Shown: piece by piece, positions 56 to 44,200 of the stretch
Numbering within the stretch: the stretch's first letter is position 1
How the letters are laid out: each line of letters opens with the position of its first letter
Assembly (NCBI GenBank): GCA_002086835.1
Contig: MVIG01000002.1
Location: 124,001-188,000 of the forward strand
Source of the DNA: Mycolicibacterium porcinum
Lineage (GTDB): Bacteria; Actinomycetota; Actinomycetes; Mycobacteriales; Mycobacteriaceae
Direction: 5' to 3'
Length of the DNA: 64,000 nt
Position numbers and translations under genes: made by a program
The notes under the pieces: model-generated
What the model was told of the DNA's origin: nothing
Database searches by the model: none
The model's input: the letters and a program-made list of their open reading frames with translations, nothing else

Positions 56-1189
56 CTACGCCGGCTTGAGGTGGAACAGTTCGCGGGCGTTGAGTTCCGC
101 GATCGCGTGTACCTCGTTGTCCGGCACGTCCCGGACCGCATCGGCCAGGATCTTCCGGCTGTTGGGCCACATCGAGTCCGAGTGCGGGAAATCGCACTCC
201 CACAGGATGCGGTCCAGGCCGATATCGTGCCGCAAGCCGATGCCGGTGGTGTCGACGATGAAGCAGCCCCAGATGTTGCGGCGGAACAGCTCCGAGGGCC
301 GTACCTCCTGGTTGATGGGCTGCCAGAAACGCTGCCGCTCCCACGTCATATCCGCTCGCTCCAGCATCCACGGCATCCATCCGATGCCGCCCTCGGCCAG
401 CACGATCTTGAGGTTCGGGTGGTTGTGGAACACCGGCGAGAAGACGAGATTGATCATCGACTGCATCGAGTTGAGGCCCATCAGCGCGATGAACGTCGCC
501 TCGGGTGCATCCGGCGCGGTGAACGGGCGGGTGCCCGACGTGCCGAAGTGCATCATCAGCGGGATGTCGATCTCCTCGGCGGCGCTGAAGAACGGATCCC
601 AGTAGTCGGTGTGGAACGACGGTAGGTCCAGCGGAGTCGGGCTCTCGATGAAGCTCACGCCCTTGGCGCCCTTCGCCGCCGTGCGGTGTAGCTCAGCCAC
701 GCAGAGGTCGACGTCCCAGACCGGCATGATCACGATGGGTGGCAGCCGATCCGGGTCGGCCGCGGACCATTCGTCGATGTGATAGTCGTTGTACGCCTGG
801 ACACAGCGCAACGCCAGATCGCGGTCGGCGCCCTCGAGGAACAGGGTGCCCGCGAACTTGGGGAACGACGGGAACGCCATTCCGGTGTGCACGCCGTCGA
901 GGTCCATGTCGAGCAGGCGGGCGCTCGAGTCGTAGCAGCCGGGCATCATCTGGTCGAATCGCACCGGGTCCCAACCCCATTCGCGCGGGTCCTTGCCCGC
1001 GACGGCGTTGAGCCCGATGTTGGGGTAGACGGTCCCCTGATAGGTCCAGACTTGGCGACCGTCCTCCCGTTCGATGATCCGGGGGCCCATCTCGTGGTCT
1101 GCACTCGGAAGCCGGTCGAGCCATACCCGCGGGTGCTCGATCAGATGGTCGTCGACCGAGACCAGTTTCATATAGTCCTGTAAGGGCAT
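56..1189 (-). CDS. Amidohydrolase-2 (ACMSD-type) metal-dependent hydrolase
   Basis: This 377-residue protein belongs to the amidohydrolase-2 family, TIM-barrel metal enzymes that include ACMSD, gamma-resorcylate decarboxylase and other non-oxidative decarboxylases and hydrolases. The N-terminal metal motif reads VSVDDH (near residue 13), a strand-end His lies in LMMHFGTSG (near 215), and a late Asp lies in WECDFPHSDSMWP (near 330). The start is ATG, preceded by an aggagac-type ribosome site. It follows the split Rieske pair B1/A1 on the same strand with a 27-bp gap, so it probably acts on the product of that oxygenase. The substrate cannot be read from the sequence. Two further members of the family occur at 45033 and 60904. 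Confidence 0.85.
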   Translation of the reverse strand: MPLQDYMKLVSVDDHLIEHPRVWLDRLPSADHEMGPRIIEREDGRQVWTYQGTVYPNIGLNAVAGKDPREWGWDPVRFDQMMPGCYDSSARLLDMDLDGVHTGMAFPSFPKFAGTLFLEGADRDLALRCVQAYNDYHIDEWSAADPDRLPPIVIMPVWDVDLCVAELHRTAAKGAKGVSFIESPTPLDLPSFHTDYWDPFFSAAEEIDIPLMMHFGTSGTRPFTAPDAPEATFIALMGLNSMQSMINLVFSPVFHNHPNLKIVLAEGGIGWMPWMLERADMTWERQRFWQPINQEVRPSELFRRNIWGCFIVDTTGIGLRHDIGLDRILWECDFPHSDSMWPNSRKILADAVRDVPDNEVHAIAELNARELFHLKPA

Positions 1190-1216: not shown

Positions 1217-2233
1217 TCAGGCCCGGCGATTGAGGCCGAGTGCTTCCGAGATGTCGCGGCCCGGATCGCCGTCGCTCAGATATGAGTAGTCGCCGGACTT
1301 TTGGCGCTCCACCAGCGCCGCGTACAGCTTGCGGTAACGCAGACCGGCCTTGTCGAAGCGTGAACTGAGGTCACGATCGTCGCCGGCTTCCAGGTAGTTC
1401 GCGTTCTGCTTGCGTACCGCCCAGTTGTCCTGCCTTCCGACGATGTGCGCAGTGTGGGAGAACAGCTGCCGCGCGACCCAGGGCAGATGCATCGGGTTGT
1501 ATGTCACCGGGGTGCGAGTCCGGGTGCGGGTTTCCGGATTGCAGGGGTGCAGCATGCGCATTGACATCCCGGGATTGAAATCGCCGTGCAGGATGCAGAG
1601 TCCACTGCGCACATGAGTGACGGTGACCACCCGGATGTTCTGTGTCGTCGCACCCTTCGCCATGGCCTTCTGTGCGTCGGGAATGGGCCTGCCGTGCGCG
1701 GTGCGGATCATGGTGACGACCTCGGAGGTGGACTCCACTTCGACGATGTCGTCCTCGGACAGCGAATCGCCGGTGAGTTTGGAGTGCAGGAAGTCTGCAT
1801 GCGTGAGATCGAGCAGGTTCTCGGCCACCAGTTCGTTGGTGCAGTCGAACACCACGGTCTTCTGGAAGTGCTTCGGCATTCCCTCCAGCGGCAGGTGTGG
1901 GACCTGCGGGATGAGGCCGGGTGAAGCATTGAGGGGGTCTCCGTACCAGACCCAGGTGTATCCGTAGCGCTCGTGGGTGATGTAGTCGCCACTGCCACCG
2001 GTCAATTCACCTTGTCGACGGTGTTGTGCCGGTGTGCCGGGCATGTCCTCGGTGGCGCGCAGGCGCGCACCGTCGCGCCAGAAGATGACCGGAAAGCCAT
2101 GTATCGCGCGTCGCAGTGGCCGCCGCCCGACGTGTTGCGTGTGGACCAGCGGGAACCAGGTGTCGCGCAGGGCGAACCCGCCCGGATGGAACCGGGACGG
2201 AGCCTTGGTGCGTTGTGGGGCAGCGGTTGTCAT
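1217..2233 (-). CDS. Split Rieske oxygenase, catalytic subunit B1 (mononuclear Fe only)
   Basis: This 338-residue protein matches the catalytic half of VanA/KshA-like Rieske oxygenases. It carries the mononuclear-iron motif N139-x2-D142-x2-H145-x4-H150 within AENLLDLTHADFLH, and a plausible third ligand D269 in VGRQDNW. The N-terminal region has the Rieske-domain framing sequence (WFPLVHT at 26-32; YGYTWVWYG near 90-98), but the CxH and CxxH cluster ligands between them are gone: residues 50-90 contain no cysteine. It cannot bind a Rieske cluster and must receive electrons from another protein, most simply A1, encoded 9 bp upstream. The pattern repeats in B2 (8179-9210). Known precedent for a cluster-less oxygenase served by a separate Rieske domain is NdmC with NdmD in caffeine demethylation. 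Confidence 0.85.
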   Translation of the reverse strand: MTTAAPQRTKAPSRFHPGGFALRDTWFPLVHTQHVGRRPLRRAIHGFPVIFWRDGARLRATEDMPGTPAQHRRQGELTGGSGDYITHERYGYTWVWYGDPLNASPGLIPQVPHLPLEGMPKHFQKTVVFDCTNELVAENLLDLTHADFLHSKLTGDSLSEDDIVEVESTSEVVTMIRTAHGRPIPDAQKAMAKGATTQNIRVVTVTHVRSGLCILHGDFNPGMSMRMLHPCNPETRTRTRTPVTYNPMHLPWVARQLFSHTAHIVGRQDNWAVRKQNANYLEAGDDRDLSSRFDKAGLRYRKLYAALVERQKSGDYSYLSDGDPGRDISEALGLNRRA

Positions 2234-2242
2234 GCGAGCTCC

Positions 2243-3376
2243 TCAGAAGATCCGGGCCCGGCGCAGTGCACGCACACCGGGGTCGACTGATTTCGGCATT
2301 GAGTCCGCCAGTGCTTCGGCGGAGTCGGCGGCTCGTCTGGCCAGTCTCCGACCGGTGGACCATGCTCTCGCGCCGACCGTGCCGAGGCGTCGCTGAGGTC
2401 CCTGCAACGACATCCGCCAGCGCATGACGGTGCGGTGGGCATCGATGGGCGTCAGTCCGATGAAGGCCTGGCACGCCGGGGTCCAGCGGCCGGCGTCGAC
2501 GTCGACGCGGGTGAAACCGGTGGCGGCGACGGTGCTGATCGTCGAGGTGATCTCCCGCTTGCTCAGCGGTTCGAAGGTCGATGCCCGAGGTAGGTCGTAG
2601 GCGTAGCGTTCACGCTGCACGGTGACGACGTTGTCCTCGCGCCGGATGGTGGGGGAGCACAGCTCGTCCCCGGCGCCGAGGAAGGCGCCCAGGCCCAGCA
2701 CGGCTCCGGGATTGTGCAGTAGCGCTTCTGCCACCGAAGTGTGTGGGGCGCGGACCTCCACGGTGCCGGTCGTTGCAATGGCGCCCGTCAAGGTGGCAGC
2801 CGGTGCGTCGGCATGCGTCGCCGAAGGTTCGGCTCCCGTCCAGACGAACACCATGCCGCCGTAGACGAGGGCGTCATACATCGTGGTGCCCACATCGGGT
2901 TCTTCACCGGTGGGCGCACCCACTGCCGGTGCCAGCACGCTGGTCCGCAATCCGAAACCCAAGGCCTCTGCAACATTCTCGGCGGCGGAGAACGCCGCCA
3001 CCTTGATTCCGTTCGGGATGCGTTCGTCGACGCTGAGGTTGGGGATCGCGGTGCAGCGTCCGGTGGCGCCGTCGAAGCTCCAACCGTGATAAGGACATTG
3101 GATCGATCCGTCCTCGGTCAGCCGGCCCATCGACAGTGGCAGCCGCCGATGCGGACACCGGTCCTCGACGGCGCGCACCATGCCGGTGAGGTCTCGATAC
3201 ACCGCGAGCGCCCTGGTGCCCAAGCGGAACGCACCGGGATGCTGATGCACCTCATCGCTGTGTGCGACAGGCCACCAGCCGGTCGGAAGTCCGAACGGCG
3301 ACAAGTCTGATTCGCCGGTCGCGGCTGTGCGCGGCGCGACTCGCAGAGTTCGCGACGATTCTTCGGCCGTGGTCAT
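2243..3376 (-). CDS. Split Rieske oxygenase, Rieske subunit A1 (2Fe-2S only)
   Basis: This 377-residue protein has a complete Rieske motif, C74-P-H76-x17-C94-P-Y-H97, within a domain typical of oxygenase alpha subunits (GWWPVAHSDEV at 33-43, FDGATGRC after the motif). The C-terminal half keeps the length of an oxygenase, but where N-x2-D-x2-H-x4-H is expected it reads ALLHNPGAVLGLG (about 219-230), so there is no mononuclear-iron site. It is therefore an electron-transfer subunit and probably the partner of B1 immediately downstream. The chosen start is ATG 3376. An in-frame GTG at 3388 and ATG at 3460 are alternatives; the long version would add non-conserved residues. The closest relative in the window is A2 (7028). 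Confidence 0.82.
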   Translation of the reverse strand: MTTAEESSRTLRVAPRTAATGESDLSPFGLPTGWWPVAHSDEVHQHPGAFRLGTRALAVYRDLTGMVRAVEDRCPHRRLPLSMGRLTEDGSIQCPYHGWSFDGATGRCTAIPNLSVDERIPNGIKVAAFSAAENVAEALGFGLRTSVLAPAVGAPTGEEPDVGTTMYDALVYGGMVFVWTGAEPSATHADAPAATLTGAIATTGTVEVRAPHTSVAEALLHNPGAVLGLGAFLGAGDELCSPTIRREDNVVTVQRERYAYDLPRASTFEPLSKREITSTISTVAATGFTRVDVDAGRWTPACQAFIGLTPIDAHRTVMRWRMSLQGPQRRLGTVGARAWSTGRRLARRAADSAEALADSMPKSVDPGVRALRRARIF

Positions 3377-3748
3377 GTGACGGTTCGACACCTTTCTGCC
3401 GCCCTGTTGGCGCACCGTTTCCGGTGTCATGAAACTAACATCGACGACTCGGACAAACAAGACAGTAACGACAACATTTGTTCAACTTGCTTCGTGTCTG
3501 GGCCTATCCGGAGCCGGCAGGTCCGGCCTGGCGGCCGACGCAGTCGGGGCGAGTCTGCCTCCTCGCCACACCGCGATCGAGGCCGGCGCCCAACGGGCGA
3601 TAAGTGGATTGCCCATTCCGGATAGTTCGCGGCTCTGCTAATGTCCGATCAAGTGGAAGTACCATTCCAGTTATATGGGCGCGTGGTCGCGACAGGTCCG
3701 CTCCGAGTGGGTTCGTCCTGACGTGCGCTGGGGATCCAGGAGGCAACA
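3377..3748. other. Intergenic region upstream of A1
   Basis: This stretch of about 370 bp has no convincing gene. It holds the A1 promoter side (AT-richer 3420-3490) and an inverted repeat TGGAA-N6-TTCCA at 3654-3669, a possible regulator site for the divergent unit to the right. No clear -35/-10 pair can be assigned. Confidence 0.4.
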
Positions 3749-7027: not shown

Positions 7028-8182
7028 ATGAGCACGCGCAATGGGGTCGAGCCTGCAGTGGGTACCGCGCCTGCACTGCAAAGCGTTCCGAACAGCCAGC
7101 TTGCTGACGGGTGGTGGCCGATTGCATTCGGAGACGAAATCGGTCAGCATCCAGGGGCTTTTCGGATAGGAGGGCACCGCTTGGCCGCCTACCGCGACGG
7201 GAACGGGGTCGTTCGGGCCGTCGAGGACGCCTGTCCGCATCGCCGGCTGCCACTGTCAATGGGACGTATCACCGAGGATGGCTACCTGCAATGCGGTTAC
7301 CACGGTTGGTGTTTCGATGGTGAGACGGGCCAGTGCACGAAAATTCCAAACCTCGCTCCCGATGAGCGCGTGCCTCGCGGGCTCAAGGTGGCGGTCTATT
7401 CGACCGCGGAGACTGTCGCAGATGTGCTGGGCTGGGGTCTGCGAACGCCGGCGCTGGCACCGCCGGTGGGGCCGCCGACCGGGGAGGAACCCGACGCGGG
7501 CACAACCATGTTCCATACCCAGACCGTGGGACGACTGGTGTTCGTGTGGATCGGTACGCAATCGCCGTCACCGCTCGACGACCTCTCCACCAATGCGGCC
7601 TACGCATTCGATCAACCTGAGTTGTCGGGTCAGGTGACCATCCGCGCGCCACACGCCGAGACGTGCGACGCGCTGGTATGGAATCCCGGCAAGTTGCTGG
7701 GTCTGGGGTGGCTCATCGGAGCCGGCGATGAGGTGGTCGGTCCGTCCGTACACACCGAGGATCACACGGTCCGGGTGAGCCGGCAGCGCTACGCACTTGA
7801 TCTCCCGCGAGCGTCGACATACGACACGCTCGCCAAGCGAGTCGTAACGCACATTGCGGCGACGGACGCGCGCACTGGCCGGACGCGGATCACAGTCGAT
7901 GGCTCGGCCCACCTGCCGGCCGCCGACCTCAGCGTCGCACTGACCCCGATTGGCAGTTACCGCACGGTGATTCGCTGGAGCGTAGCTTTCGACCGAGCGG
8001 CATCCGCACTGAACCGTTCTGCGCTCAAGGTCGCGGCTCGAGCGAGCCGATTGCACGGTGCCGCGCGCGCCGAAGCGGTGGTTGATGCCACCGAAGACGC
8101 GGTGGACGCTGCGGTTGACCGATTACGCGAGCTTCGCCGTCACGCACCTGTGGTACCCACCGATCAAGGAGATGTCTCATGA
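7028..8182 (+). CDS. Split Rieske oxygenase, Rieske subunit A2 (2Fe-2S only)
   Basis: This 384-residue paralogue of A1 has the Rieske motif C69-P-H71-x17-C89-G-Y-H92 in an intact domain (DGWWPIAFGDE upstream, FDGETGQC downstream). At the place of the oxygenase iron motif it reads ALVWNPGKLLGLG, so it too has no mononuclear-iron ligands. Both A proteins share the signatures RRLPLSMGR, PTGEEPD, GTTM, YA-DLPRAST and LTPI, so the family is real and constrained over its whole length, including the non-catalytic C-terminal half. The C-terminus ends in an acidic, Ala-rich helix. It overlaps B2 by ATGA, so the two are translationally coupled and probably form a complex in 1:1 ratio. Confidence 0.85.
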   Translation: MSTRNGVEPAVGTAPALQSVPNSQLADGWWPIAFGDEIGQHPGAFRIGGHRLAAYRDGNGVVRAVEDACPHRRLPLSMGRITEDGYLQCGYHGWCFDGETGQCTKIPNLAPDERVPRGLKVAVYSTAETVADVLGWGLRTPALAPPVGPPTGEEPDAGTTMFHTQTVGRLVFVWIGTQSPSPLDDLSTNAAYAFDQPELSGQVTIRAPHAETCDALVWNPGKLLGLGWLIGAGDEVVGPSVHTEDHTVRVSRQRYALDLPRASTYDTLAKRVVTHIAATDARTGRTRITVDGSAHLPAADLSVALTPIGSYRTVIRWSVAFDRAASALNRSALKVAARASRLHGAARAEAVVDATEDAVDAAVDRLRELRRHAPVVPTDQGDVS

Positions 8183-9210
8183 CTCAGACCGTGGACTCGA
8201 CGAAGCTCGCGCCCAAAAGTTTTCGGCCGGGAAGCTACGCATTGCGAGACGCCTGGTTTCCGTTGGTGCATACCAACCAAGTTCGTCGCTCACCGGTCCG
8301 GCGAGCGATACACGGTGATCCGGTGGTGTTCTACCGGGACAGCGATGGAGCGGTGCGGGCAGCGACCACGACCCCGCCCGGTGTCGGGCGCGAACCCAAA
8401 CGTGCTGGGTTCGCCGCCGAGTACAAGCAGTACCCGGTAATCGAGCGGTATGGCTACGCGTGGGTCTGGTACGGAGATGAGGCGAACGCCTCGCCCGAAC
8501 TCCTGCCGTGCATTCCGCACACGCCTGTCGAGGGGATGCCACGCCGCTTCGAGGCGACGATCGTCTACGACTCCACCTACGAACTGGTCTGCGAGAACCT
8601 CCTTGACCTCACCCACGCCGATTTCCTGCATTCGAAGCTGACCGGCGACGCGCTGTCCGAGGACGACGTGATCGAGGTCGAGTCAACGTCAGAAACGGTG
8701 ACGATGGTTCGTATTGCGCGGGGCAGGCCGATTCCGCAGATGCAGAAGGGTTTCGCAAGAGGTGCGACCACTCAGAATGTCCGCGCTGTCACGATCACCT
8801 ATGTGCGCAGCGGACTATGTGTGCTGCACGGTGATTTCAACCCGGGTATGTCGATGCCGATGATTCATCCGACCAACCCGGAGAGCCGCATTCGGTGCCG
8901 TGTCCCGGCGGTGTTCAATCCGCGCTATATGCCTGCGTTGGGGCGGGCGGTGTTTCCGCTATCCGCGCATCCCGTTGGCCGACAGGATAACTGGGCAGTA
9001 CGTAAACAGAATCTCAACTATCTGAACGGGACCCAGTGGCGGGAGGACAAGGTCGATCTGAGCTCCCGGTTCGACAAGGCCGGTCTGCGTTTTCGGAAGG
9101 TCTATCAACAGCTGGTGGCCCGCCAAGAGCAGGGCGACTATTCCTATCTGTCGGACTCCGGGATCGCACGAGACACCTCCGAGGAACTCGGTCTCGATCG
9201 ACGAGCCTGA
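8179..9210 (+). CDS. Split Rieske oxygenase, catalytic subunit B2 (mononuclear Fe only)
   Basis: This 343-residue paralogue of B1 has the catalytic motif N140-x2-D143-x2-H146-x4-H151 (ENLLDLTHADFLH, identical to B1) and the late Asp in VGRQDNWAVRKQN. The region that would carry the Rieske ligands (about 50-95) has no CxH or CxxH. D143 is the position that in ordinary Rieske oxygenases bridges the Rieske cluster of one subunit to the iron of the next; its conservation suggests that cluster A2 docks against B2 in the same geometry. It starts at the ATGA shared with the A2 stop. No ferredoxin or reductase gene is adjacent. Confidence 0.87.
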   Translation: MTQTVDSTKLAPKSFRPGSYALRDAWFPLVHTNQVRRSPVRRAIHGDPVVFYRDSDGAVRAATTTPPGVGREPKRAGFAAEYKQYPVIERYGYAWVWYGDEANASPELLPCIPHTPVEGMPRRFEATIVYDSTYELVCENLLDLTHADFLHSKLTGDALSEDDVIEVESTSETVTMVRIARGRPIPQMQKGFARGATTQNVRAVTITYVRSGLCVLHGDFNPGMSMPMIHPTNPESRIRCRVPAVFNPRYMPALGRAVFPLSAHPVGRQDNWAVRKQNLNYLNGTQWREDKVDLSSRFDKAGLRFRKVYQQLVARQEQGDYSYLSDSGIARDTSEELGLDRRA

Positions 9211-9246: not shown

Positions 9247-9912
9247 TCACCGCACCTCGCTCGCATCGTCTTTCAGCATGGCGTCGCGCATTCGACGTGC
9301 CGACGGTGCCGGCGCGATGGGATGGGCGTGGTGGGTGTCGCATGCGGCGAGTAGGTAGCTGAGCAGGCGCCTCGACGCCGCGGGTGCGGCATCGGCGGCG
9401 CTGGTGACAACGCCCGCATTCGCCATCAGCAGCATGACCAGATCCTGTGGGCGAAACTCGGGGCGAAGACGTCCGGTCGCCTTGGCCTTGGCTATCAACG
9501 ACTGGAAGCCTCGATAGGTGGCCGAACGCTTGGCCTCGAAGGCGCCGGCTCTGGGAAATGTCATGGTCAGCACGTTGGTGAAGCCGCGGTCCTGATACTG
9601 CATGGTGCAGGCATGTTCGATGAACTCGCAGAACCCGTGCCATGGATCGGGATCGCGAAGGGCCTCGTTGACCGCGTCGTGGTAGCTATTCATCTTCTCC
9701 GCGAAGACGCCGGTGATCAGGTCGTCTCGGGTGGGGAAGCGCCGGAAGAGTGTGGCGATACCGACCCCTGCTCGACGCGCAACCTCGGCCATCGGGGCAT
9801 CGAGCCCCTGCTCGGCGAAGACCTGCCGCGCGGCATCGACAACGGCGGTACGGTTGCGCTCGGCATCGGTTCGTAGGGCCCGCCGGTGGGGGGCATCGCT
9901 GGAAGCCGTCAC
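9247..9912 (-). CDS. TetR-family transcriptional regulator
   Basis: This 221-residue protein starts at a GTG. The HTH is at about residues 35-62 (PMAEVARRAGVGIATLFRRF, then PTRDDLITGVF), a subtype of TetR seen widely in Mycobacterium and Streptomyces. It is convergent with split oxygenase pair 2 and lies 25 bp downstream of the 2-oxoacid oxidoreductase gene on the same strand, so it may be co-transcribed with that gene or regulate pair 2. Confidence 0.85.
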   Translation of the reverse strand: MTASSDAPHRRALRTDAERNRTAVVDAARQVFAEQGLDAPMAEVARRAGVGIATLFRRFPTRDDLITGVFAEKMNSYHDAVNEALRDPDPWHGFCEFIEHACTMQYQDRGFTNVLTMTFPRAGAFEAKRSATYRGFQSLIAKAKATGRLRPEFRPQDLVMLLMANAGVVTSAADAAPAASRRLLSYLLAACDTHHAHPIAPAPSARRMRDAMLKDDASEVR

Positions 9913-9937: not shown

Positions 9938-12900
9938 TCAGGCCTTCCACTTCTTTCGCAGCGCCGACGTGTCGACCCCCAGTTCGTCCAGCCGCTCCAC
10001 GTAGCGGCCGATATTGCGCATCTTCACGTCCTCGTAGCCGCGAACCAGGTCCGGGGCCGATGCGGCGGCGACGGCATCGTCGTACGAGTTCTCCGACAGG
10101 TCGGCGAGCAGACCGCGCACCATCTCCTGGTAGTGGTCGGCAATCTGACGTTCGATACGGCGCATACGCGTATGCCCGAATGGGTCCAGCACGGTGCCAC
10201 GTAGGAAGCGGCCCTTGGCCAGGACCCGCAGCGCCCCGTGGGTTCCGGGACGCATGCCGATCTTCTTCTTGCGGCCCAGTGCCTTCAGCAGCGGTGGATG
10301 CAGCTTGTAGGTGAGGTGTTCGCCTTCGGGTACCTGCTTGCGCACCGACTCGATGAAGGCGGGGTCGGTGAGCATGCGGGCCACCTCGTACTCGTCCTTG
10401 TAGGCCATCAGTTTGTGCAATCCCCGCGCGACGGCCTCGGACAAGTCGGTGCGCTCGGTGATGCGTCGTTCCTGCGACCACGCATGGGTGACGAAGTCGA
10501 CGTACCTGGCCGCGATGCGATCCCCCTGGTAGGCAACGAGACCCGCGGCACGTCGCTCAAGAAGGACGCGGGCCTCGCCGACCACCGGGCAACTGGCAAG
10601 CAGGTGGGTCGGCACGACGGTGTCGGAGTGCTGTGCCTGGTTGGGCGGCTGGGTGGCGGTCCGGAACGCAGCCGGGTCGGCTACTGCCACCCGGCCCCAG
10701 CGGAACGCCGCCTGGTTCGCGGCGACGGCCACCCCGTTGATGGCGATCGCCTCCTCGATCGCTGCCGCCGGAATGGGCAGGCCACCAGCCTGATACGCGG
10801 CACCCACAAGGAGGAAGTTCGCCGACAACGTACTGCCGAAGAGGGTGTTGGCGGCGGTCAGGGCATCGAAGGCGGTGAGGGTTTTGGATCGTACGTCCAG
10901 GCGCGACAGCAGAGTGTCGTCGGAGGGATACTCGACCGCGCCGTCGTAGACCATTTCTCCGGTCGGTGTCCTGCTGGTCGAGGCGACGGCGGTGGTGCGA
11001 TTCGGATCGCCATAGCCGACGTTGCGGGCATCGACCGCGGTGAGCAGGTCGAACGCGAGCACGCAGTCGGCCGCGCCGGGACTGATCCGATTCGAGCGCT
11101 CGACCGCGACGGCGCTCAGCCGCAGATGAGACGTCACCGGCCCCGCCTTCTGGCTGAGCCCGGTCTGGTCCAGGCCTTCCACGTGCAGTCGGCTTCGCAG
11201 GGCAGCCATGCCGAGCACTTGGTTGACGGTGACAATGCCTGTTCCACCGATGCCTGCCAGGAAGACGTTGTGAATGCCGGTGATTGGCCGTTGTGCGGGA
11301 TCGGCGACCTCGGGCGGAGTGGGAGCCTGTGGTCGTGCCGCCGCGGACGGCTGATCCGGGACCTCGACGGTGACAAAGGAGGGGCAGTCGCCGTCGAGGC
11401 AGCTGTAGTCGGTGTTGCAGGTCGTCTGATCGATCCGGGTCTTGCGTCCGAATTCGGTTTCGACCGGTTTCACGGACAGGCAATTGCTCTTAACGCCGCA
11501 GTCGCCGCAACCCTCGCACACCGCTTCGTTGATGACGACGCGCGTGCGGCGCACGGGCATGGTGCCGCGTTTGCGCTTGCGCCGCGCGTCGGCGGCGCAG
11601 TGTTGGTCGTAGATCAGCACGGTGACGCCCTTGGTGTCGCGCAACATGCGCTGGGCTTCGTCGAGGCGGTCTCGGTGCCAGACCTGCACGCCGGAGGCGA
11701 ATGTGGCGCCGTCGTGCCGCTCCGGTTCGTCGGCGCAGACGATGACCTTGGTCGCGCCATCGGCGACGAGCTTGTGCGTCAGCTGAGGGACGGTGAGGCC
11801 GGCCTCGACAACTTGAGCACCCGTCATGGCGACCGCGGAGTTGAACAGGACCTTGTACGTGATGTTGACCCCGGCGGCGACGCAGGCCTGGACGGCCAGC
11901 TGACCGGAGTGGAAATACGTTCCGTCGCCGACGTTCTGGAAGATGTGGTCGACGTCGGTGAACGGCGACTGGCCGATCCACTGCGCGCCCTCGCCGCCCA
12001 TCTGAGTCAGTCCGCTCACCTGTGAATCGGTCCTGGCCGACATGGTGACCAAGGTGTGGCATCCGATACCGCCGCCGGCCAACGATCCCTCGGGCACGGC
12101 GGTGGAACGATTGTGTGGGCAACCCGAGCAGAAGTACGCGGTGCGCTTGGTGGGCAGCACCGTCAGCTCCAACGTCGGGGGCGGCGGCGAAGGCAGCGTG
12201 ATCCGCTCCCGCAACACCCGGCGCAGTGGAGCGGTCAGGCGGGCGGCGGTGAGTTCGCCGTCCGGAGGAATGAGCTTGCGGCGCTCGGAATCCCGCTTGC
12301 CGAGTACCTGCGGGCCATCGCTGCGTCCATAGAGCGCGTCCTTGACCTGAGCCTCGACGAATGCGGTCTTGTCCTCGACCACCAGCACTTGCTGGACGCC
12401 GCGGGCGAGCCGGACGATCTTGTCTGCGCCGAGCGGGTACGGCATGCCGACGCGCAGAATTCGGATGCCCGCGCTGTACAGGGCCGCCTCGCTCAGCCCC
12501 AGCTCCAGCAGGGCTTCGCGGACGGAGTCGTAGGCGGTCCCGACGGCGACGATGCCCAACCAGGCGTCGGCCGGATCGACCTCGATGGCGTCGATGTCGT
12601 TGGCCGCGTTGAAGGCTTCCACCATCGCCCAGCGCGGTCCGTACAGGTCGGCCTCGGCGAGCACGCTGTCGGGGGGAGCGGCGAGCACCCGCTGGCGGTA
12701 TGTCCAGGGGCGGCCTTCCCATTCGATGGTGGGTGCCACGATGTCGAAGTCGGCGAAGTCGCGCCTCAGCGTCCACAGACCGTCGGCGACGTCGGCGACG
12801 ATCTTCATGGCCGGCCAGCACCCCGAGGCGCGGGACAGCGCGATTCCGTACAGGCCGAAGGCGACGAGTTCTTCGGCGTTGCGGGGGAAGAAGATCGGCA

Positions 12901-13426
12901 TGGATAGTGCTGCGAGGGATCGTTCACTGGCGGCGGGCACGCTCGATGACTTGGCGGCCGGGTCATCACCGACCAGCGCGAGCGCGCCGCCGCTCGGATT
13001 CGCCCCGTACATCGCGGCATGCCGCAGTGCGTCGCTGGCGCGATCCAGCCCAGGGCCCTTGCCGTACCAGACGCCGACCACGCCGTCGGCGGAACGCTTT
13101 CCGCGTGGCAGTTCCAACTGGCTGCCCCACACCGCGGTGGCCGCGAGTTCCTCGTTCATCCCGGGGACCAGCTTTACGTGGTGATCGGTGCGGAGCTCGG
13201 GAAGGTCGGCCAACAGCTGGTCGAGTCCGGCCAGCGGGCTGCCCTGATAGCCGGAAACGAAAGTGGCGACGTTTTTTTGAGCCCGTAGGTCGCGCACGTG
13301 TTGTTCGACCAACAGGCGCGCAATGGCCTGCACGCCGGTCAACAACACCGGTCCCGACGAGGGGCGGTACCGCTGCTCGAGGGTTGATTCGACGGCTGGT
13401 GTTTCTGGGTTATGCAGATCGGTCAT
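9938..13426 (-). CDS. Indolepyruvate ferredoxin oxidoreductase family protein (fused)
   Basis: This 1162-residue fused 2-oxoacid:ferredoxin oxidoreductase is of the indolepyruvate type, oxidising aryl or branched 2-oxo acids to acyl-CoA with transfer of electrons to ferredoxin. Order: N-terminal pyrimidine-binding domain (FVSGYQGSPLAGLD near residue 58); TPP domain with CSGCPHNRS and GGGIGCHTL (about 430-460) and GEGAQWIGQSPF; a ferredoxin-like cysteine cluster CEGCGDCGVKSNC and CNTDYSCLDGDCPSF (about 635-690); and the gamma domain (IAGIGGTGIVTVNQVLG, about 728) to the end. It is divergent from an Lrp/AsnC regulator across a dyad at 13523, a usual arrangement for amino-acid-derived 2-oxo acid catabolism. 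Confidence 0.9.
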   Translation of the reverse strand: MTDLHNPETPAVESTLEQRYRPSSGPVLLTGVQAIARLLVEQHVRDLRAQKNVATFVSGYQGSPLAGLDQLLADLPELRTDHHVKLVPGMNEELAATAVWGSQLELPRGKRSADGVVGVWYGKGPGLDRASDALRHAAMYGANPSGGALALVGDDPAAKSSSVPAASERSLAALSMPIFFPRNAEELVAFGLYGIALSRASGCWPAMKIVADVADGLWTLRRDFADFDIVAPTIEWEGRPWTYRQRVLAAPPDSVLAEADLYGPRWAMVEAFNAANDIDAIEVDPADAWLGIVAVGTAYDSVREALLELGLSEAALYSAGIRILRVGMPYPLGADKIVRLARGVQQVLVVEDKTAFVEAQVKDALYGRSDGPQVLGKRDSERRKLIPPDGELTAARLTAPLRRVLRERITLPSPPPPTLELTVLPTKRTAYFCSGCPHNRSTAVPEGSLAGGGIGCHTLVTMSARTDSQVSGLTQMGGEGAQWIGQSPFTDVDHIFQNVGDGTYFHSGQLAVQACVAAGVNITYKVLFNSAVAMTGAQVVEAGLTVPQLTHKLVADGATKVIVCADEPERHDGATFASGVQVWHRDRLDEAQRMLRDTKGVTVLIYDQHCAADARRKRKRGTMPVRRTRVVINEAVCEGCGDCGVKSNCLSVKPVETEFGRKTRIDQTTCNTDYSCLDGDCPSFVTVEVPDQPSAAARPQAPTPPEVADPAQRPITGIHNVFLAGIGGTGIVTVNQVLGMAALRSRLHVEGLDQTGLSQKAGPVTSHLRLSAVAVERSNRISPGAADCVLAFDLLTAVDARNVGYGDPNRTTAVASTSRTPTGEMVYDGAVEYPSDDTLLSRLDVRSKTLTAFDALTAANTLFGSTLSANFLLVGAAYQAGGLPIPAAAIEEAIAINGVAVAANQAAFRWGRVAVADPAAFRTATQPPNQAQHSDTVVPTHLLASCPVVGEARVLLERRAAGLVAYQGDRIAARYVDFVTHAWSQERRITERTDLSEAVARGLHKLMAYKDEYEVARMLTDPAFIESVRKQVPEGEHLTYKLHPPLLKALGRKKKIGMRPGTHGALRVLAKGRFLRGTVLDPFGHTRMRRIERQIADHYQEMVRGLLADLSENSYDDAVAAASAPDLVRGYEDVKMRNIGRYVERLDELGVDTSALRKKWKA

Positions 13427-41649: not shown

Positions 41650-41665
41650 TAATGCATTGACATTA
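41650..41665. promoter_or_regulatory. TAATGC-N4-ACATTA, probable TetR operator copy 1
   Basis: A 6-4-6 dyad between the divergent thioesterase (41618) and CoA transferase (41744) genes. It differs by one base from the perfect copy at 44949, so both probably bind the TetR encoded at 44206-44892. Confidence 0.68.
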
Positions 41666-41743
41666 ATCTTGAGCGCTGCCATGCTGACGTGGCGCGCATC
41701 ACAACGTTGCGCTGAGCGCTTGGGCCCGCACGGAGGAGCGAAT

Positions 41744-44200
41744 ATGGCGGCAGATCACCCCACAACAGACGGTCCCCTGGCGGGCCTGGTGGTGGTCGAC
41801 TTGACGACCACGCTGCCTGGTGCACAGGCGACGCAATTCCTCGCCGACTGTGGCGCCGACGTCATCATGGTCGAACCGCCCGACGGTAGCCCGCTGCGCG
41901 ATCTGGCCGGCTGGCCCGCGTTGCTGCGCGGTAAGCGCAGCGTCACGCTCGATCTGCACGATGACACCGACCTGAACCGGTTGCGCGCGCTGTTGCGTCG
42001 TGCCGATGTCATGGTCAACACTTTGCGGCCGGCGTCCGCGGAGCGCCTTGGCCTGAGCCCTCGGGTGTTGTCCGAGCGGTATCCGCAGCTGGTGGTCGCC
42101 AACATCACCGGCTGGGGGTCGACCGGGCCGTGGCGCGACTACAAGGGCTGGGAGGCCCTCGTCATGGCGAAGACCGGCGTCATGCACGAGAAACGTGGTC
42201 TGACCCTGCGCCCCGGGCCGGCCTACATTTCGATGCCCTACGCGTCCTGGGGCGCCGCGCACGCCGCAGTGCAGGGAATTCTGGCCGCGCTCATCGAGCG
42301 TGACACCAGCGGGCTGGGCCAGATCGTCGAGTCGAATCTGGTCACCGGCATGGGTTCAATGGACCCGTACAACTGGTTCTACGAGATGGTGCTCGAACGC
42401 TATCCCGGGGCGTTCGAACCGATGGACGCCGCCTACGACGACTTGGGACGCCCACAGGCCTACCTCATCTATGCCTTGCTGGTTGCGCCGACCAAGGACG
42501 GCCGGTGGCTGCAGTTCGCCCAGGTGTCACCGCGGCTGATCCACGCCTGGCTGACCGAGCTCGACCTGTTGGGCGAGCTGGCCGACCCGAAATGGCAGGG
42601 CTTCCCGATGCTTCCCACCCCCGAACTGCGGACGGAGTGGTGGGACATGATGCTGGAACGGGTGGGAGCCCGCACGCTGGCCGAGTGGGAAGAGACCATG
42701 GCCGCCAATCACGACCTGTCCGGTGAGCTGTTCCGCACCCCGGACGAGGCGCTGGATCATCCCCAGATTGTCCACGACGGCCGCGCCGTCACCGTGATCG
42801 ATCCGGAACTCGGGCCGGTGCGCCAGCCCACCACGCTCATTCATTCCGAGGGCAAACCGCTGACCGAGATCCGGCCGGCGCCCCGGCTCGGCGAACACAA
42901 CTCGTCGGTGAGCTTAGAAGTGCCCGACGCCGGCAATCGGCGGCCCGTCGCCAATACGGCCGATCTACCGCTGGCCGGGGTGACGGTGCTGGAGTTCGGC
43001 AGCATGTTCGCCGGTCCCTACGGCACGACGCTGCTCACCGATCTGGGCGCGCGGGTGATCAAGGTCGAGCCGTTGGAAGGCGACAATATCCGCAACCTCG
43101 TGGCATTCCCCGAGGCAGGCGGGGCGAAGGTGTTGCAGGGCAAGGAAAGTGTCGCGATCGACTTCACCAAGCCCGAAGGGCTGGAGCTCGTCTACGAGTT
43201 GGCGAAACGGTCAGACCTGGTGCTGCAGTGTTTCCGCGGCAATGCCGCCGAACGGGCCGGAATCGACGAGGCCAAGCTCAAGGCGGCGAACCCCGACCTC
43301 GTGGTGTTGGGCATGTCCGGATATGGCGCCGACGGGCCCTATGCCCATCGGTCGGCCTACGCGCCGTCGATCGGCGCCGCGTCAGGGCTGTCCGTGATCG
43401 ACAGCCGCAGCGCGGCGAGCCGGCCGGCAGACCTAGATGAAGCACACCATCGTGCGGTGACCCTGCACGCTGCGAGTGCGGTGCCGGCGGTCCAGTCCGA
43501 TGGCATCGCCGCCCTGGGGGTCGCGTCGGCGCTGCTGGTCGGCTTGTACGCCAAGCGCCGCGGGATAGTGCTGCCGCACCTGACCGCCTCGATGTTCGGT
43601 ACCGCGTTGCAGGCGGTGATCAACCGCAACACCGGATACGCCGGACGCCCCGCGGTCGAATCCGTGGACAATGAGTTCTACGGCCTGAACGCGCTCTATC
43701 GGATGTACCGCGCCGCCGATGGCTGGGTGTTTCTGGCGGCGCCACTGGCTCGCGAATGGCCGGCGCTCACCAAGGCCATGGCGGCCTACATCGACTTGCA
43801 CGCTGACGAGCGGTTTGCGAGCCAGGCATCACGGGCCGAGTATGACCACGCCCTGATCGACGTGCTGACACCGGTGTTTGCCACCAAAGCGGCGGCGGAA
43901 TGGGAGCGCGAGCTCTCGTCGCGAGACGTCGGCTGCGTCGAAGTGGCGGAACGCAACTCCGAGATCCTTCTGCAGACGGACCCGTTCTTCGAGGCCGGCT
44001 ATTCGGTCGAGGCGCGCAGCCCCATTTTCGAAGAGCACCGCCGGTTGGCTCCGCTGTGCCGGTTCTCTCGATCGCGGACAAAGGCCGATGCAGGCTGCAC
44101 GATCGGCCAGCACACCGACGCGGTACTGCACGAGATCGGCGTCGATGACGACAGGATCGCAGCCCTGCGGGCCGCGAAGGTGATCGGCGGCGGCAGCTGA
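41744..44200 (+). CDS. Double-domain CaiB/BaiF (family III) CoA transferase
   Basis: This 818-residue protein holds two CoA-transferase domains in tandem. The first (about 5-390) has DLTTTLPGAQATQFLADCGADVI and LRGKRSVTLDL; the second (about 405-815) has VLEFGSMFAGPYGTTLLTDLGARVIKVEPLEGD and QGKESVAIDF. At the nucleophilic Asp position the first domain reads YKGWEALVMAKTG (Glu) and the second AYAPSIGAASG (none), so catalysis is uncertain or uses Glu. ATG 41744 has an excellent cggaggagcg site; upstream in-frame ATGs are not conserved-looking. Confidence 0.87.
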   Translation: MAADHPTTDGPLAGLVVVDLTTTLPGAQATQFLADCGADVIMVEPPDGSPLRDLAGWPALLRGKRSVTLDLHDDTDLNRLRALLRRADVMVNTLRPASAERLGLSPRVLSERYPQLVVANITGWGSTGPWRDYKGWEALVMAKTGVMHEKRGLTLRPGPAYISMPYASWGAAHAAVQGILAALIERDTSGLGQIVESNLVTGMGSMDPYNWFYEMVLERYPGAFEPMDAAYDDLGRPQAYLIYALLVAPTKDGRWLQFAQVSPRLIHAWLTELDLLGELADPKWQGFPMLPTPELRTEWWDMMLERVGARTLAEWEETMAANHDLSGELFRTPDEALDHPQIVHDGRAVTVIDPELGPVRQPTTLIHSEGKPLTEIRPAPRLGEHNSSVSLEVPDAGNRRPVANTADLPLAGVTVLEFGSMFAGPYGTTLLTDLGARVIKVEPLEGDNIRNLVAFPEAGGAKVLQGKESVAIDFTKPEGLELVYELAKRSDLVLQCFRGNAAERAGIDEAKLKAANPDLVVLGMSGYGADGPYAHRSAYAPSIGAASGLSVIDSRSAASRPADLDEAHHRAVTLHAASAVPAVQSDGIAALGVASALLVGLYAKRRGIVLPHLTASMFGTALQAVINRNTGYAGRPAVESVDNEFYGLNALYRMYRAADGWVFLAAPLAREWPALTKAMAAYIDLHADERFASQASRAEYDHALIDVLTPVFATKAAAEWERELSSRDVGCVEVAERNSEILLQTDPFFEAGYSVEARSPIFEEHRRLAPLCRFSRSRTKADAGCTIGQHTDAVLHEIGVDDDRIAALRAAKVIGGGS

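Follow-up and report, generated by a model that had tools for sequence, protein, structure and literature searches.

Predicted division of a Rieske oxygenase between a cluster subunit and an iron subunit encoded by adjacent genes in Mycolicibacterium porcinum and other bacteria

The analysed window, a stretch of 64,000 nucleotides on contig MVIG01000002.1 of Mycolicibacterium porcinum, contains two adjacent genes, A1 and B1, whose products each carry one of the two metal-binding motifs of a Rieske oxygenase. The features of this pair are as follows.

2243–3376, minus strand: A1, cluster subunit with an intact Rieske domain and a catalytic domain reduced to a remnant without iron ligands
3086–3157, minus strand: Rieske ligand stretch of A1, C74-x-H76 ... 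C94-x2-H97, invariant in 17 of 17 A
1217–2233, minus strand: B1, iron subunit with a catalytic domain containing the facial triad and a shortened Rieske domain that has lost the cluster ligands
1784–1822, minus strand: iron motif of B1, E138-N139-x2-D142-x2-H145-x4-H150, invariant in 19 of 19 B
1427–1429, minus strand: D269 of B1, expected to be the third iron ligand (putative), invariant in 19 of 19 B

A1 comprises 377 residues counted from the ATG at 3376, with an in-frame TTG upstream at 3460, and displays the motif C74-P-H76-x17-C94-P-Y-H97 but no iron site. Its Pfam match is to the Rieske domain (PF00355, E 2.6e-22), while the VanA_C catalytic-domain model reaches 12.5 bits, below its cut-off of 23.5. 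For B1 (338 residues) the sole Pfam match is VanA_C (PF19112, E 1e-32), and a Rieske domain sought in it with Pfam gave no match at E 1. The gene starts 9 bp downstream of the A1 stop codon. The motif and Pfam scans and the coordinates thus agree with the original prediction, made from the sequence of the window, which had described A1 as having Rieske ligands without the iron motif and B1, encoded 9 bp downstream, as having N139/D142/H145/H150 without Rieske cysteines. Residue D142 is expected to be the bridging aspartate; D269 had not been noted before. An assignment of A1/B1 to the 4beta-methylsterol monooxygenase SdmA (NF052579) was rejected on scores of 59.5 bits for A1 and 22.8 bits for B1 against a curated cut-off of 600.

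A second pair in the window, absent from the original prediction, displays the same division of centres and spans positions 7028–9210 of the plus strand.

7028–8182, plus strand: A2, cluster subunit of the second pair, with C69, H71, C89 and H92 at 7232–7303
8179–9210, plus strand: B2, iron subunit of the second pair, with its iron motif at 8593–8631

The two frames overlap by 4 bp. The identity between A1 and A2 is 51%, that between B1 and B2 64%; B2 retains a sub-threshold Rieske trace (14.7 bits, residues 26–62). The other Rieske proteins of the same genome, which contains 28 Rieske matches, served as a control. Twenty of the 26 matches besides A1 and A2 were taken in, and the 16 in which the Rieske motif was recognised by pattern were judged; all 16 also carry the iron motif, with Asp at the bridging position in 13 and Glu in three.

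Relatives were sought with both subunits. A search of 148 genomes of the genus, which we infer to be mycobacterial, with A1 as query gave a match in four at 1e-20. Three of these (G000, G085 and G086, the last counted as one with L001, recorded as Mycolicibacter senuensis) contain two A-type proteins each; the matching protein of the fourth, G055, is a complete oxygenase. Searching the same four genomes with B1 (1e-15) revealed B-type genes in the first three and none in G055. A collection scan with A1, covering 80 of 214 relatives, yielded beyond L001 one A-type frame, in the Cellvibrionales MAG L002, where B comes next as in the other pairs. The matched frame contains both motifs in 69 of the other 78 loci (L003–L080); among the remaining nine, no frame was recognised in L039, the Rieske motif only was seen in L056, L057, L059 and L066, and L069, L072, L078 and L079 were each missed by one motif pattern. 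On plasmids (72,556 searched by tblastn with B1 at 1e-20) four records were retrieved, one from Massilia putida, one from Novosphingobium resinovorum and two from Croceicoccus marinus, all with an A-type gene directly upstream of B. The B profile detected a further copy in G671, the genome of L002 (1e-40), and, in the order of L002, matches in four of 341 genomes, namely G671 (two), G700 (three), G806 and G1006 (1e-60). In samples of the family (201 genomes, 1e-30), the order (397 genomes, 1e-60), the phylum (396 genomes, 1e-60) and the phylum of G671 (398 genomes, 1e-60) the B-search matched the query genome alone, with the proviso that the genome searches evaluated a small number of candidates in each genome, mostly up to 5–13, and may miss some. 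The A/B family is rare but spread over distant bacteria.

Altogether 17 pairs were assembled, six from three mycobacterial genomes, seven from four genomes of the order of L002 and four from plasmids. Because the two Croceicoccus pairs do not differ from one another, nor do those of G806 and G1006, 15 of the 17 are non-identical. The family search for linked genes proposed in the original prediction found every one of the 17 A immediately upstream of its B. The samples searched were also checked for the observation named there as refuting, homologues that occur alone with the missing ligands present, and yielded none; every B met in these genomes and plasmids shares its cluster with an A. Two clusters contain an extra B, in G085 (L119 2653–3669) 160 bp upstream of an A, and in G086 (L120 4941–5960) about 1.3 kb downstream of the second B. 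Because of these additional genes the partnership of A and B is not strictly one to one, and two iron subunits may share one cluster subunit.

The adjacent genes are arranged in the order A then B in all 17 pairs, either overlapping (by 4 bp in the second pair of G086) or separated by at most 41 bp with the starts chosen, the first residue of each translated frame being set to M. The defining features of a Rieske oxygenase are distributed over the two proteins: the cluster ligands C74, H76, C94 and H97 are present in 17 of 17 A, and the 2-His-1-carboxylate set together with the bridging Asp (E138, N139, D142, H145, H150 and D269) in all 19 B, i.e. the 17 paired and the two extra ones. Conversely, the iron motif occurs in none of the 17 A and the Rieske motif in none of the 19 B, so that no polypeptide of either set combines both centres. 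The predicted division of the two centres between two proteins has thus been kept in every linked pair, and we assign it with high confidence. Because the same complementary loss recurs in A2/B2 and in 15 further pairs, its occurrence in A1/B1 is not due to chance. With identities as low as 21% between A proteins and 30% between B proteins, the division is old. Traces of the lost iron site persist in the nine non-identical proteobacterial A, where the motif segment is still visible with its histidines replaced and its Asp kept in eight; the six mycobacterial A exhibit neither the segment nor its Asp. A 38-column insertion after the Rieske domain (A1 residues about 136–173, within 2243–3376 of the minus strand) is found in the six mycobacterial A alone and is absent from the nine proteobacterial rows. 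Beyond the Rieske domain, three residues of the A remnant are invariant (P223, T316 and W320). The distance matrices of A and B correlate with r 0.91 over 15 pairs, a value attained in none of 10000 permutations, although such a correlation is expected from linked inheritance alone.

Profile comparisons point to the origin of both subunits. In hhalign comparisons with 15 complete oxygenases, the alignment of the A family extends over 256 columns (E 1.8e-46); it takes in much of the catalytic domain but leaves out the final 66 columns of A. That of the B family with complete oxygenases extends over 284 columns (E 7.5e-23) and takes in the shortened Rieske domain; the A and B profiles align to each other over 224 columns (E 7.5e-11). 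Among sequences of solved structures, B is nearest to 7qwt (6.7e-14) and DdmC (1e-11), and A to oxygenase alpha subunits (DdmC, 5.5e-21); with the best Rieske ferredoxin at 4.5e-06, an identification of A as a Rieske ferredoxin was rejected. These data show that A and B both derive from complete Rieske oxygenases and sustain the earlier view of A1 and B1 as entire alpha subunits that have each lost one centre. In trees with 34 complete oxygenases, A forms one clade (99/99, on 101 columns) and B another (100/99). NdmC-like sequences constitute a clade of their own, apart from B, but a joint clade was not rejected (AU p 0.44); the NdmC-like L057 row starting at 1738 was out of frame in the B-clade tree and left out of the A-clade tree and of the AU test.

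Selection was compared within the mycobacterial pairs. For A1 and its G085 counterpart dN/dS is 0.03 in the Rieske domain, 0.30 in the insertion and 0.23 in the catalytic remnant, and for the second pairs of G086 and G085 the corresponding values are 0.08, 0.16 and 0.36; between A2 and G085, silent sites of the Rieske domain are saturated, and insertion and remnant give 0.14 and 0.32. For B, remnant and catalytic part amount to 0.05 and 0.055 (B1 versus G085), 0.20 and 0.10 (second pair, G086 versus G085) and 0.37 and 0.07 (B2 versus G085). All 14 computable values of 15 lie below 1. Constraint on the kept centre exceeds that on the remnant in both computable comparisons of A and in two of three of B, and in both computable comparisons the insertion of the mycobacterial A evolves under weaker constraint than the Rieske domain. 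An origin of the pairs by sequencing error, frameshift or pseudogene decay is barely conceivable: nothing in its favour was found, and against it stand dN/dS below 1, open and stop-free frames of coding codon composition and the recurrence of this architecture in 15 more pairs of other assemblies and plasmids.

On this basis, we propose that A and B are obligate subunits of one heteromeric Rieske oxygenase in which the cluster of A reduces the iron of B via Asp142, a reading to which we give a probability of roughly three in four. In ordinary Rieske oxygenases, the widely believed electron path leads from the cluster of one subunit through a conserved Asp to the iron of its neighbour (PMC12445004). 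Because B retains this bridging Asp in 19 of 19 sequences, the simplest functional unit would be a heteromer in which A donates and B accepts the electron. A, which keeps the [2Fe-2S] cluster, would deliver electrons and act as scaffold; B would provide the mononuclear iron and the substrate pocket; and both remnants probably retain the ring-forming surfaces. In the stable heteromer the cluster of A would be placed against the iron site of B, as between neighbouring subunits of an ordinary trimer, such that the electron could pass from a histidine ligand of A (H76 or H97) to Asp142 of B and on to the iron. There, O2 would be activated and probably used to hydroxylate a hydrophobic (aromatic or polycyclic) catabolic intermediate. 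Contact between A and B, electron path, stoichiometry, external reductase, reaction and substrate are what we infer from the sequences, and the assembly of A and B into one complex is advanced with moderate confidence.

In the usual ring of three subunits, A and B have no way to alternate, and an even-numbered ring, A2B or AB2 trimers or a trimer of dimers would be needed; for the A3B3 particle of the original prediction, the choice would lie between a ring with an even number of members and a trimer of dimers. Several observations weigh against the heteromeric reading. The final 66 columns of A find no counterpart in the oxygenases. Just three residues of the A remnant past the Rieske domain are invariant, and this remnant could have a role other than that of a scaffold. 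In one of three comparisons the remnant of B1 is as constrained as its catalytic part (0.049 versus 0.055), and two mycobacterial genomes have the extra B mentioned above.

Alternatively, A might shuttle electrons as a mobile Rieske protein, binding for short times to a cluster-less homotrimer of B in the manner of a ferredoxin, with no fixed heteromer. The faster evolution of the A remnant relative to the A Rieske domain would fit this idea, as would NdmC/NdmD, where a cluster-less oxygenase is supplied by the Rieske domain of another protein (PMC4408171), and Paracoccus-type loci that join a 227-residue Rieske protein with a cluster-less iron protein. A mere carrier, however, would not need the long and recognisable catalytic remnant that A retains under constraint (dN/dS 0.23–0.36), and the Rieske domain of A is of the alpha-subunit type; we consider a carrier function improbable. 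Still less probable, and in our view quite remote, is that A and B are not partners at all because one or both left oxygenase chemistry, B for example cooperating with another Rieske protein and A serving in redox reactions or regulation. The extra B genes of two genomes would be in keeping with such a divergence, and all support for a partnership comes from sequence data. Against it stand the strict adjacency in 17 of 17 pairs across Actinomycetota and Pseudomonadota, the complementarity of the ligands and the constant presence of A in the cluster of each B in the samples searched.

Returning to the heteromer, the principle of splitting is not new: an algal enzyme occurs as two chains, and NdmC/NdmD is a one-sided case. 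The two-chain chlorophyllide a oxygenase (CAO) of Micromonas pusilla, reportedly described by Kunugi in 2013, carries the Rieske motif on one chain and the iron motif on the other, and shares with A/B the two chains with one centre each. It differs in being a eukaryotic plastid enzyme of chlorophyll b synthesis in a green alga, whereas the A/B genes are bacterial, adjacent and located in apparent catabolic clusters, with B of the VanA_C type. The Micromonas enzyme (MpCAO) is described as two polypeptide chains that are suggested to form a heterodimer and are active in vitro, and its assembly as likely something like a trimer of dimers (PMC9615114). The precedent chosen in the original prediction, NdmC/NdmD, is a cluster-less oxygenase served by a foreign Rieske domain and is one-sided; the two-chain CAO, absent from that prediction, is the closest known system (PMC9615114). 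In NdmC/NdmD(/NdmE), the N7-demethylase of Pseudomonas putida CBB5, the cluster resides on a separate protein as in A/B (PMC4408171), yet that of NdmD is fused to a reductase, while A possesses a catalytic remnant and no reductase part; in a domain scan of five of the 17 A (A1, A2, L002, L096 and L114) only Rieske-type models exceeded their cut-offs. Locus L056 is judged NdmC/NdmD-like from its domains, with Fer2 and NAD_binding in the NdmD-like protein and a catalytic domain of the VanA_C type at the locus. Loci of Paracoccus/Pseudooceanicola (L057 4998–6593, L059 and L066 4995–6592) encode a 227-residue Rieske protein beside a cluster-less iron protein of about 290 residues, seemingly an NdmD/NdmC-like split minus the reductase fusion; at the same loci a second cluster-less iron protein adjoins a complete oxygenase.

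Two further types deserve comparison. VanA/DdmC-type oxygenases (PF00355 plus PF19112) represent the broad type from which A and B both derive, but bear both centres on one polypeptide instead of one each. NdmA3NdmB3 is an example of an alpha3 alpha'3 heterohexamer and resembles the proposal for A/B in combining two different alpha-type subunits per particle. The alpha3 alpha'3 arrangement is a named category of Rieske oxygenases (PMC12445004); NdmA and NdmB, unlike A and B, contain both centres each (PMC4408171). In searches of open-access papers, judged from titles and abstract openings, no report describing the bacterial A/B family was found. As a bolder extension, A/B might constitute an ancient, previously undescribed bacterial class of reciprocally degenerate Rieske oxygenases, independent of the algal CAO and built as even-numbered rings or trimers of dimers, in which one A serves interchangeable B, as the extra B genes hint, and the catalytic half is a replaceable module; we offer this tentatively and regard it as possible, with the odds somewhat against it.

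The potential value of the pair lies in the separation of functions. Each subunit of an ordinary Rieske oxygenase is both donor and acceptor, and the electron path consequently has to be inferred. Donor and acceptor appear to have been separated by nature in A/B, so that A-only, B-only and mixed preparations would provide direct measures of inter-subunit transfer, of the role of the bridging Asp and of turnover stoichiometry. The family also points to the reciprocal loss of centres that is known from an alga as a condition maintained in bacteria of two phyla or more, and neighbouring genes that in relatives are annotated “Rieske protein” and “oxygenase” should be interpreted as encoding a single enzyme.

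The genomic surroundings provide hints to the function. Three genes adjoin the pairs in the window.

56–1189, minus strand: amidohydrolase (PF04909, by Pfam), downstream of B1
9247–9912, minus strand: TetR-type regulator beside A2/B2, context only
9938–13426, minus strand: indolepyruvate ferredoxin oxidoreductase family protein adjoining A2/B2, functional context only

A frame with the same sequence start as the amidohydrolase follows the pair in G085 and G086. The window further encodes a ring-hydroxylating oxygenase alpha/beta pair, P450s, AMP-binding ligases, thiolases, acyl-CoA dehydrogenases, an HpaH-like hydratase above its cut-off and an HpaI-like aldolase below its cut-off, and looks like a catabolic island. 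An 847-residue protein with two CoA-transferase family III stretches is encoded at window positions 41657–44200. Neighbours in relatives include an amidohydrolase-like frame, enoyl-CoA hydratases, SnoaL-like and epoxide hydrolase proteins, FAD_binding_2 oxidoreductases and an AMP-binding ligase. A hydrophobic, aromatic or polycyclic substrate is plausible. An estrogen-type substrate, prompted by the indolepyruvate oxidoreductase (EdcC family, PMC7793797), was considered and dropped, the word Rieske being absent from the main text of that paper. On the sphingomonad plasmids, F420-biosynthesis genes (cofC, cofH and npdG, or cofC and cofD) lie beside A/B at L097 13424–18048 and L098 16546–18966, where F420-dependent enzymes are likewise annotated. 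With respect to electron supply, an annotated 2Fe-2S protein near the pair in Novosphingobium and Croceicoccus is a candidate partner; the Novosphingobium protein has no Pfam match at 1e-5. Between two A/B pairs of G085, a 551-residue ferredoxin-reductase fusion is encoded (L118 10573–12228), which consists of an FdxA-like ferredoxin part, scoring below the NCBIfam cut-off, and a reductase-like part, and is a possible electron source for A/B.
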